Shown piece after piece: positions 32,199 through 35,037 of a stretch of DNA of 41,175 bases; within the stretch, counting starts at the first letter, position 1, and each line of letters starts with the position of its first letter. The stretch is from Myxococcales bacterium. GTDB taxonomy: Bacteria > Myxococcota_A > Polyangia > Polyangiales > Houyiibacteriaceae. Under the pieces are notes generated by a model. That model was not told where the DNA came from. It saw only the letters and a list, made by a program, of their open reading frames with translations, and made no database searches. The translations under genes were made by a program, and so were the position numbers. The stretch covers positions 1-41,175 of the forward strand of contig JAHBWH010000062.1 in assembly GCA_019637115.1 (NCBI GenBank), written 5' to 3'.

Positions 32199-32350
32199 GG
32201 GCCCACCTCCGCGCACGCGAGCGATTTCACGAGCCCACCTCCACACGCGCGCCGCCCCCCACATGCCCGCCTCCATGCACGCGCGCAGCCTCTCGCGCCG
32301 TGCTCCATGCACCGGCGCGGCTCCCGATGCCCTGCGGGGGGCAGACTCAC
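32195..32350 (-). CDS. Possible small ORF in a duplicated gene junction
   Basis: A 51-codon frame runs from a GTG overlapping the stop of the 549-residue gene to a TGA overlapping the start of the 422-residue gene. It is Arg/Gly/Cys-rich and its end (AEVGP) mimics the end of the upstream protein (AEVGA), because both come from copies of the same short sequence. It is more likely a by-product of the duplications than a working gene, though it could carry ribosomes from one gene to the next. Confidence 0.15.
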   Translation of the reverse strand: MSLPPAGHREPRRCMEHGARGCARAWRRACGGRRACGGGLVKSLACAEVGP

Positions 32351-32364
32351 GCGCCCACCTCCGC
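32195..32364. repeat. Triplicated 16-bp stop/start junction motif
   Basis: TCACGxGCCCACCTCC occurs at 32195-32210, 32227-32242 and 32347-32362, differing only at the sixth base (G, A, C). On the minus strand this is GGAGGTGGGCxCGTGA: a Shine-Dalgarno-like GGAGG, a GTG and a TGA. The copy at 32347 is the end of the 549-residue gene; the copy at 32195 is the start signal of the 422-residue gene. Confidence 0.92.
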
Positions 32365-33996
32365 GGCCATCGCGCTCATCACCCGCAGCCGGTCGACGAG
32401 CTCCCCGAAGCGGGTCGCCGCCGTATCGCCGCCGCGCTCGAGCAGCGCCCAGCCGCCACGTGGCGTGGTGTACGAGGCCTGCGTGTAGAACTCGTAGCCC
32501 ACCGTCAGCTCGCCGGGCGCGCCGACCGGCGGGTTGAGGTTCAGCGCGAGATCGAAGGGCAGCAGCGCCTCGAGCAGCCGCGCGTCGCCCACGAAGGGCA
32601 CGTCGAGGAGCAGCGGCTGGCGAGGGTCGAGTGCTCCGAGCGCCTTCGCGAGCGCTGGCACGTCGAAGGTGTAGGCCGCGTCGTGCGCGATCGCGCCCAG
32701 CGCGCGCGTGAGCCACGCGTGGACGGCGCGAGGGCCCTCCACGAGGGGGTCGAGCAGATCGCTCAACGACACCGGTGGCGCGTCGGCGAGCCCGCGACCA
32801 CGCAGGATGAGCAGTCGGGCGGCGCCCGCCTGCGCGACCATCGCGTAGAGCATCAGGCTCGTCATCCGCAGCATCATCGACGGGAGCACGAAGGTGTAGT
32901 CGGTCGCGCCTGGCAGGAGCGCGCGGAGATCACTGCCGAAGCGCTCCATCAGCGGCGCGAGCAGCGGCCGCGCGAGCCCGCGGCGCACGTGCACGGGCGC
33001 CGCCTCGAACCCCTTGAGCACCTTGAAGAACGGCAAGGTCACCCGCGGGTTGCGCATCGCGCGGTGCACGCGCTCGGTGATCTGCGCGAGCTCCGCGTCC
33101 TGCAGCCAGCTCCCCCACTCGTGCAGCCGGAGCAACATCTCGACGCCGCTCGCCGAAGCGATCGCGTGCTCGCGCAGCCTCGGCAGGTGCGCTCGATACT
33201 CCACGGTCGCCCGGTCGAGGCGCACGCCCGCTTTTCCGAAGAGCCCCTGCAGTGCGGTGAGCGGTACCGCGCCCGGCGCCTCGTCCAGCGCCTTCACGAA
33301 GCCCGAGAGCCCTTGCTTCGCGAGCCCATCCCGTGCCCGCACGAACGCCCCGACCGCGGGGAGCTCCTCTGCTGCCGCCCGGCCGTCGCCGAAGCAGAGG
33401 TCGTGGATCGCCCGCTCGCGCGGGCCCTCGAACCGAAACCGAAGGAGCGCCGCCGATTGCTTCACGGCGTCGCGGAACTTGAGCAGCGTCGCCGCGGGCG
33501 CCGCCGCGATCGTCGCGCGGAAGATCGCGCGCAGGCGCTCGAAGGGCGGATCGATGAGCCGAAAGGGGACCCACTTGCGCCACCCGGTCAGCACCATCGC
33601 GGCGGGCTTGATCACCGCGGTCGGGAACCCGAGGCGCCACGCCCAAGGCAGCGCGTCGAGCATCGCCTCGAGCGTCGCCTCGTCTCCGCGCTCGAGCGCA
33701 CCGATGGCGTGCAGCAGCTTGTGGTCGTTGAGGAGCGCGCGGGCGTGGGCACGCAAGAGCGCGTGGTGACGCGGAGTCGACGCGCGGACGAGCTCCCAAG
33801 CCCGCGCGAGGTGCTCGGCCTCGCCCATCGTCGCCGTCGGAACGATCTTCTCGAGCAGCGCCGCGTCGAGCACGGGATCACCGGTCGAGATCGGCAGCGA
33901 CACGCCGAGGTCGATGACGTGGAGCGCGCGCCGCTCGGCGAGCAGCAGCTTGTACCGGCGCTTCAGATCGCGAACGGAAGGGAGCGAGGGGCTCAT
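32347..33996 (-). CDS. Unknown 549-residue protein
   Basis: 549 residues, no recognised family. It is largely helical with repeated Leu/Ala/Arg patterns (LAERRALHVIDLGVSLPISTGDP, RVTLPFFKVLKGFEAAPVHVRRGLARPLLAPLMERFG) and two hydrophobic stretches (TFVLPSMMLRMTSLMLYAMVA near 370), but no convincing membrane topology or signal peptide. ATG at 33996 (MSPSLPSVRDLKRRYKLLLAERR) begins with a basic helix. It is the first of two adjacent minus-strand unknown genes that most likely form an operon. The last residues (AAEVGA) are part of the triplicated junction repeat. Confidence 0.72.
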   Translation of the reverse strand: MSPSLPSVRDLKRRYKLLLAERRALHVIDLGVSLPISTGDPVLDAALLEKIVPTATMGEAEHLARAWELVRASTPRHHALLRAHARALLNDHKLLHAIGALERGDEATLEAMLDALPWAWRLGFPTAVIKPAAMVLTGWRKWVPFRLIDPPFERLRAIFRATIAAAPAATLLKFRDAVKQSAALLRFRFEGPRERAIHDLCFGDGRAAAEELPAVGAFVRARDGLAKQGLSGFVKALDEAPGAVPLTALQGLFGKAGVRLDRATVEYRAHLPRLREHAIASASGVEMLLRLHEWGSWLQDAELAQITERVHRAMRNPRVTLPFFKVLKGFEAAPVHVRRGLARPLLAPLMERFGSDLRALLPGATDYTFVLPSMMLRMTSLMLYAMVAQAGAARLLILRGRGLADAPPVSLSDLLDPLVEGPRAVHAWLTRALGAIAHDAAYTFDVPALAKALGALDPRQPLLLDVPFVGDARLLEALLPFDLALNLNPPVGAPGELTVGYEFYTQASYTTPRGGWALLERGGDTAATRFGELVDRLRVMSAMAAEVGA

Positions 33997-34366
33997 GAGA
34001 TCTCGGACGCGGGCCGCGATGAAGCGGCTAGTGGTGCTCGGCGGAAGTGACGATACCGTACCGGCGAGGATTCGGCGTCGCTTGGCGGTCCGAATCGACG
34101 AAGGACATGCAGAGCATATTCGAGGAGATAGGCCGAAGGCCGGTCGGGCCGCCGAGCGGCGCCGAGGACCGGCGCAAACGGATCGTCAGTTTCGCTGAGC
34201 ACCACTAGGGAGCGACGCTGCGCGAATGTCGCCGCCGAGTGCATGGGTCCGGCGGCCGTTTTCCAATAAAAGAACTGAACGCTCTGCCGTGCGTGAGTCG
34301 CGGAGCGGGAGGACTGTACCACGAGCCCCTCGACTCGCAGCCACTCCTCGCCAGCCCGCGCGGAGC
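33997..34366. other. Gene-free interval with long palindrome and AT-rich segment
   Basis: 370 bp without a credible gene. Open frames are short and of non-coding composition. It contains the 181-bp inverted repeat (34028-34208) and, at about 34255-34280, an AT-rich GTTTTCCAATAAAAGAACTG that may hold a promoter for the gene ending at 32347. Confidence 0.6.
34028..34208. mobile_element. 181-bp imperfect palindrome bounded by CTAG; MITE-like or RNA hairpin
   Basis: The left end CTAGTGGTGCTC (34028-34039) is the exact inverse of GAGCACCACTAG (34197-34208). Pairing goes on inward with only scattered differences through TGACGAT, and with a one-base slip through TCGGCGTCGCTTGGCGGTCCGA, which pairs at 18 of about 21 positions. 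The middle 45-50 bp are unpaired. Most mismatches in the arms would be G-U pairs in a plus-strand transcript. CTAG at both ends could be a target duplication. There is no transposase gene. Whether this is a mobile element or an RNA is not settled. Confidence 0.65.
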
Positions 34367-34978
34367 TCACTCGCCTCGACTGCCTCGAAGCGCCTCGCGA
34401 TACGCGCGAATCGCCGCGCTCGTGGTGGGCTGGTCGATGAAGCTCGCGAGCTGCGCGAGATCGATCCCAGGGAGGGCTTCGCTGACGTCGACCTCTTCGT
34501 ACCGATCGCCGCGCAGCCGATGCACCGAGATGCGCCCCTGCCGCCAGTACCACACCTCGGCGACGCCGAGCTTCCGGTAGATTTCCAGCTTGTCGAGGCC
34601 CCCCGAGGTCCAGACCACCTCGATGGCCAGGTCGGGCCTCGTCGCCCCCTCGCGCCCACCGAGCACGTAGCACTCGTCGGGCTCGGCGCCGCGCTCGAGC
34701 GCTTTCTCCTCGAGGGTCCAGGATCCGAGGGTGTGAAACTCGATGTCGCGCTCGAGGCAGTAGACCTCCACCAAACGACCGATCATCGACTTGATGGACT
34801 CGTGGGTCGCGGAGGGGCTCATGAGCTCGAGGCGTCCTTCCAGGTAGGCGAGCCGCGGCACGGACTGGTCCCCGCGAATCTCGAGCATTCGCTGGTAGTC
34901 CGCCCACGTGACCCCGGAGAGGACGACGATGTGGTCCTGAGGGGCCGCCGGAGCCTGCGCGAGAGCATGTGCCAGCAT
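34367..34978 (-). CDS. Uma2-family (DUF820) PD-(D/E)xK endonuclease-like protein
   Basis: 203 residues. The family core is GVTWADYQRMLEIRGDQSVPRLAYLEGRLELMSPSATHESI, then ATRPDLAIEVVWTSGGLDKLEIYRKLGVAEVWYW with the D-ExV and K of a restriction-endonuclease-like fold. Members are common in cyanobacteria and myxobacteria and of unknown physiological role. ATG at 34978 starts MLAHALAQAP; the longer frame to 35407 is not supported. It stands alone beside the CTAG palindrome. Confidence 0.9.
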   Translation of the reverse strand: MLAHALAQAPAAPQDHIVVLSGVTWADYQRMLEIRGDQSVPRLAYLEGRLELMSPSATHESIKSMIGRLVEVYCLERDIEFHTLGSWTLEEKALERGAEPDECYVLGGREGATRPDLAIEVVWTSGGLDKLEIYRKLGVAEVWYWRQGRISVHRLRGDRYEEVDVSEALPGIDLAQLASFIDQPTTSAAIRAYREALRGSRGE

Positions 34979-35037
34979 GCGGTCAGTATAGCCCGCCGTG
35001 TCGCGCACGTCGCTGGCGCGGGGGTCCACCTTCTGAC

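Follow-up and report, generated by a model that had tools for sequence, protein, structure and literature searches.

An imperfect palindrome with CTAG ends from a Myxococcales genome belongs to a cross-phylum group of elements with differing arms and the same folded tip

Introduction

Bacterial MITEs are usually viewed as passive insertion-sequence remnants that are defined by their ends alone. Insertion sequences of the IS701 family use YTAR-like targets, and some subgroups of the IS5 family produce 3-bp TWA duplications. IS5 itself has been reported to duplicate YTAR/CTAG (PMC10359306, PMC10379815). Repeats with a conserved structure have also been described; the CIR elements of Caulobacter and other Alphaproteobacteria are intergenic, longer than 100 bp and have a conserved secondary structure (Chen and Shapiro 2003, as excerpted in PMC2229807).

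In a 41,175-nucleotide window from a Myxococcales bacterium (the whole stretch of DNA analysed), a first-pass annotation had described a 181-bp palindrome with CTAG ends and had read it either as a MITE mobilised by IS5-like elements or as a structured RNA. Here we report that this palindrome is one family of a so far unnamed cross-phylum group, the members of which differ in their ends and arms and have the same folded tip. This main point, an apical core common to many families with unrelated ends, was not foreseen by the annotation. The group appears undescribed: it has no Rfam family, we did not find an account of it in the literature covered, and a literature search with the core letters gave no relevant paper among the matches listed.

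Results

The palindrome is real and its coordinates are exact, as CTAGTGGTGCTC starts at position 34028 of the window and the reverse complement of CTAGTGGTGCTC finishes at 34208. The outermost 27 nt of the arms, CTAG included, are 89% complementary (inverted repeat I1), and the flanks of this copy have no matching bases past the 4-bp CTAG. There is no plausible gene inside the 181 bp, in agreement with the annotation, and the likely neighbours are a gene for a 549-residue protein and a Uma2-family gene. The parts of the locus are as follows.

34028–34208, plus strand: whole element with flanking CTAG 4-mers; orientation taken from the conserved core; fold z = −10.9; ~18 substantial genome copies
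34028–34031, no strand: left CTAG, presumed target-site copy; in several families, most intact copies have a CTAG at either end
34032–34054, plus strand: terminal inverted repeat on the left (TGGTGCTCGGCGGAAGTGACGAT), where the left arm begins; part of inverted repeat I1 (27 nt including CTAG, 89% complementarity)
34055–34096, plus strand: inner part of the left arm, which the fold prediction pairs to the right arm
34097–34127, plus strand: conserved apical core, GACGAAGGAC-ATGCAGAGCAT-ATTCGAGGA(G), composed of tandem G·A pairs, C-G, a bulged A, G-C, G·U, A-U, C·A, a covarying stem and a triloop; common to ~40 families with other arms, with covariation and divergent cores
34131–34141, plus strand: small side hairpin GGCCGAAGGCC of the right arm, specific to the window family; in the predicted fold and kept in copies
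34142–34181, plus strand: inner part of the right arm, from the predicted fold
34182–34204, plus strand: right terminal inverted repeat (I1)
34205–34208, no strand: right CTAG, presumed target-site copy on the same basis as the left CTAG
32347–33996, minus strand: left neighbour, 549-aa gene without a Pfam match, gene start facing the element
about 34370–34981, minus strand: right neighbour, Uma2-family gene, gene end facing the element

When folded as RNA, the plus strand forms a single rod of −126.8 kcal/mol, as compared to −76.9 ± 4.6 kcal/mol for dinucleotide shuffles (z = −10.9; 0 of 200 shuffles as stable), while the minus strand folds worse (−99.7, z = −7.8). This strand difference bears out the proposal that the arm mismatches become G-U pairs in a plus-strand RNA. 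An Rfam search returned no match above the gathering score for the element.

The window's own genome (G000) is an 8.9 Mb, 98% complete MAG in 434 contigs. The element is not unique in it: BLAST revealed 18 substantial copies with 82–99% identity over long stretches, plus fragments, and 14 aligned copies of the window family have a mean column identity of 90%. The same genome holds a second family with the ends CTAGTGCCCCCAACCC, about 169 bp long with its flanking 4-mers and present in tens of copies, the ends of which occur 72 times when up to 2 mismatches are allowed. The CTAG-flanked terminal ends are TGGTGCTCGGCGGA in the window family and TGCCCCCAACCCGA in the second family; the arms of the two are unrelated and the tip is the same. 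Some window-family copies abut second-family elements. In G060 (C125) and at two G000 loci, two different families lie directly side by side with one CTAG in common, a pattern that resembles insertion of one into the CTAG that ends another. At G000:C380:7551, a 19-bp right-end remnant of the window family lies between two CTAGs (CTAGGCCAATCCGCCGAGCACCACTAG) and is perhaps an internal deletion product. Many contigs of G034, G052, G057 and G060 end within or next to an element, and thus the copy numbers from these genomes are probably too low.

A scan of species genomes with the core pattern identified at least 103 stretches. Among the matches listed, the taxa include Myxococcota, Rhodospirillales, Parvularculaceae, Hyphomicrobiales, Bdellovibrionia, Ca. 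Muiribacterium and others, and the few without a fold represent chance. By flank similarity the listed matches fall into at least 52 groups, and in most of these the same tip forms despite differing arms; besides the two host families, about 40 others were found among the matches listed, in Myxococcota, Alphaproteobacteria, Bdellovibrionia and Ca. Muiribacterium. The architecture of the group consists of CTAG/YTAR-like ends, arms that are complementary within an element and mutually unrelated between families, and the common core GACGAAGGAC-[stem-loop]-ATTCGAGGA. Elements are about 160–182 bp long in Deltaproteobacteria/Myxococcota and about 265–275 bp long in Alphaproteobacteria. A covariance model, R1, found matches in 14 of 282 Myxococcota genomes, indicating that occurrence is patchy, with up to 85 matches in one genome (about 38 in G000, 83 in G041 and 20 in G057). 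Single matches occur in Roseospira marina and in Roseospirillum parvum. On plasmids, an alphaproteobacterial member had no match and the window element a short one only, and the single match on viral contigs lacks the fold and is probably due to chance.

The alignment used to assess the structure contained 41 sequences, one per flank group, which were found by pattern, such that pattern-fixed letters cannot count as conserved. Within it, 93.6% of pair cells are standard pairs and 86 cells are changed on both sides. The covariation that the first-pass annotation had proposed to look for is strong across families, with a score of 0.508 compared to 0.135 ± 0.017 for shuffled sequences and at most 0.075 when the partners were slid, and it is located in the core's inner stem and in the stem that flanks it. 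Divergent matches found by the model, the alignments of which were read by eye, have Watson-Crick pairs in place of the A-U and C·A pairs and retain the tandem G·A pairs and the G·U pair, while the bulged A is missing in one lineage. Immediately outside the core, 22 of the 41 sequences have a third tandem G·A step, where the others mostly have Watson-Crick pairs.

The arm mismatches are unequal between the strands. On the core strand G-T outnumbers A-C (175 versus 66; binomial p about 1e-12) and G-A outnumbers T-C (195 versus 49; p about 1e-21), in tests where sites of one family are not fully independent. This bias points to selection on the fold of one strand. Judged from the aligned sequences, the data show that a one-strand fold is under selection, and the core strand appears to act as a folded single strand, more likely as RNA than as ssDNA. 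Hence, the structured RNA of the annotation stands as to selected structure, on both covariation and strand-specific mismatch bias, with RNA as the probable nature of the strand. If the element were an ordinary IS-derived MITE, with a functionless shared relic as its core and the pairing kept by gene conversion between the arms, this would be in line with the long hairpins common in MITEs (PMC2229807). However, the same tip recurs in families with unrelated arms, its pairs covary and the mismatches favour one strand, and arm-to-arm conversion would yield no strand bias, nor would it keep tandem G·A mismatches. We consider such a relic rather unlikely.

At the sites of two other copies, not the window copy, the orthologous regions of relatives align across the junction without the element, these species being too distant for the precise junction to be placed. 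For a third copy, the adjoining gene end is kept in a relative and the sequence beyond the junction is unalignable. Most intact copies of several families are flanked by CTAG on both sides. The G052 and G059 families have 3-bp flanks, TTA/TTA or TAA/TAA, which are direct and not inverted repeats, as expected of duplications. By contrast, second-family copies often have unequal flanking 4-mers, even at 98% internal identity, and CTAG pairs inside one family are accounted for by the concordance expected by chance; target duplication is thus not proven for the window's own host. The unequal flanks may have arisen by mutation, recombination, misassembly or imprecise insertion. Most of the variation in these 4-mers falls on the two central bases (CNNG: CCAG, CGAG, CTCG, CTTG), and the terminal bases of the element itself hardly change. 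The idea that the element inserts into hairpins already present in the host was considered and rejected, as flank complementarity was 4.40 compared to 4.69 in shuffled pairs.

Many copies start at the stop codon of a gene, as called by a simple home-made gene caller, with the TAG lying within CTAG on either side of the element. A CTAG duplication would retain the stop codon, and such insertions would therefore be harmless. For example, the second-family element at G000:C334:101791-101959 starts exactly at the TAG stop of a nadA-like gene, identified from its C-terminal sequence. The orientation relative to host genes has no clear bias (32 versus 20 upstream, not significant), which makes a role in host mRNA unlikely, and within 3 kb of the core there is no recurring neighbour gene other than ORFs running through the element itself. 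These data bear on the view that the element is a host structured RNA gene or a cis-regulatory RNA duplicated by other means. The RNA-like covariation and the invariant G·U pair would fit this view, but the copies lie at CTAG sites by unrelated genes with no recurring neighbour and no clear orientation bias, there is no Rfam family, and the element is present in only 14 of 282 genomes and missing at orthologous sites, which already disfavoured a host gene. We regard it as highly improbable.

The candidate movers differ between lineages. The alphaproteobacterial genome G064 contains an 841-bp IS5-family transposon (NF033580, E = 1.7e-35) with ends that agree in 16 of 18 positions with those of alphaproteobacterial elements, and the ends of insertion sequences in G057 and G063 match local alphaproteobacterial elements at 13–15 of 18 positions, in a comparison where the end-match shuffles ignore the general resemblance among IS5 ends. 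On its antisense strand, an IS5-family transposon of 841 bp (L402, 1430-2275) holds GGGCATATTCGAGG, which resembles the alphaproteobacterial core in its 3′ half, probably by chance. The idea that the core is a relic of an IS5 gene was rejected, as one weak resemblance had no clear counterpart at five other IS5-type loci. In the assembly of the window's genome, there was no IS5 transposase or transposon with window-family ends and no DUF4096 IS5 gene; the transposase genes found are two IS4/Tn5-like and one IS701-family. Insertion sequences are often absent from short-read MAGs, making the absence of a mover from the assembly weak evidence. The IS701-family enzyme is a candidate mover for the window family. 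An IS5-type mover is supported for the alphaproteobacterial relatives and may apply to the window family. The annotation of the element as a MITE mobilised by IS5-like elements thus holds for the MITE, given the multiple copies, empty sites and CTAG or 3-bp direct repeats outside the inverted repeats; the IS5 part is supported for the alphaproteobacterial relatives only, as the host assembly has no matching IS5.

A different route would be that of REP/REPIN sequences, whereby a Y1 (HUH) transposase, recognising CTAG at the foot of the hairpin, would cut and move the folded ssDNA with no target duplication. The strand-specific hairpin, the unequal second-family flanks and the conserved tetranucleotide at the foot, comparable to the GTAG of REPs (PMC8266576), are consistent with this mechanism. 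Yet Y1 transposases (PF01797) were absent in G000, G041 and G057 despite their many matches, two families have 3-bp direct repeats, and REPs are 20–40 bp (PMC3733652); we thus find this route quite unlikely. An IS200-like gene beside one G060 copy was taken to be an ordinary neighbour with its own hairpin.

Discussion

The element is 181 bp, contains no gene and has terminal inverted repeats, dispersed copies and, for other copies, empty orthologous sites. With a probability of roughly 60%, we favour a MITE that is moved in trans by DDE transposases and carries a conserved core that works as a folded single strand. By this mechanism, a DDE transposase supplied in trans would recognise the terminal repeats, and insertion at CTAG/YTAR-like sites would duplicate 4 bp, or 3 bp (TWA) in two related families. 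For the alphaproteobacterial members the mover would be an IS5-family enzyme. The core strand would fold as a single strand, RNA being favoured over ssDNA, and would serve the element's own spread or tolerance. The core acts as one folded strand and is kept in families that differ in their ends and probably in their movers; for this reason its most likely partner is a widely conserved host factor, which it would bind as RNA or ssDNA. The ends may be exchanged or may evolve to fit whichever transposase is available. A bolder proposal, which we hold only tentatively, is that the core acts as a functional module, as RNA or ssDNA, and marks out a cross-phylum mobile class, in which the core and not the ends constitutes identity, ends are swapped to borrow different transposases and the element's own folded strand is recognised.

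With a covarying tip, common to families with unrelated ends and selected on one strand, the question of whether certain MITEs require a folded RNA or ssDNA to spread becomes open to experiment. In addition, the covariance model allows annotation of a repeat class that is absent from Rfam and reaches up to about 85 matches per genome.

Among known systems, the REP/REPIN sequences with their RAYT (Y1) enzymes are similar in that they, too, form repeated hairpins, carry a tetranucleotide at the hairpin foot and have one strand as the active fold. However, REPs are 20–40 bp with GTAG on one side, whereas the present elements are about 160–275 bp with CTAG on both sides and a conserved tip, and several element-rich hosts are without a Y1 gene. 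CIR elements, in the excerpted description (PMC2229807) that sets them apart, have two separate arms, GANTC in the loop and unpaired ends, unlike the single rod with paired ends found here. The Correia/NEMIS and ERIC sequences are also MITEs of 100–200 bp with 5′ and 3′ ends that pair into one long stem, but each is a single family with TA ends from one or a few genera, and none is described with a tip common to elements with unrelated ends. The IS5-family MITEs are likewise short and gene-less, with terminal inverted repeats, CTAG/YTAR flanks and ends like those of IS5-family transposons in alphaproteobacterial hosts. For the window family, however, the host assembly yielded no matching transposon, and known MITEs are defined by their ends, whereas here the ends vary between families and the folded core is conserved.
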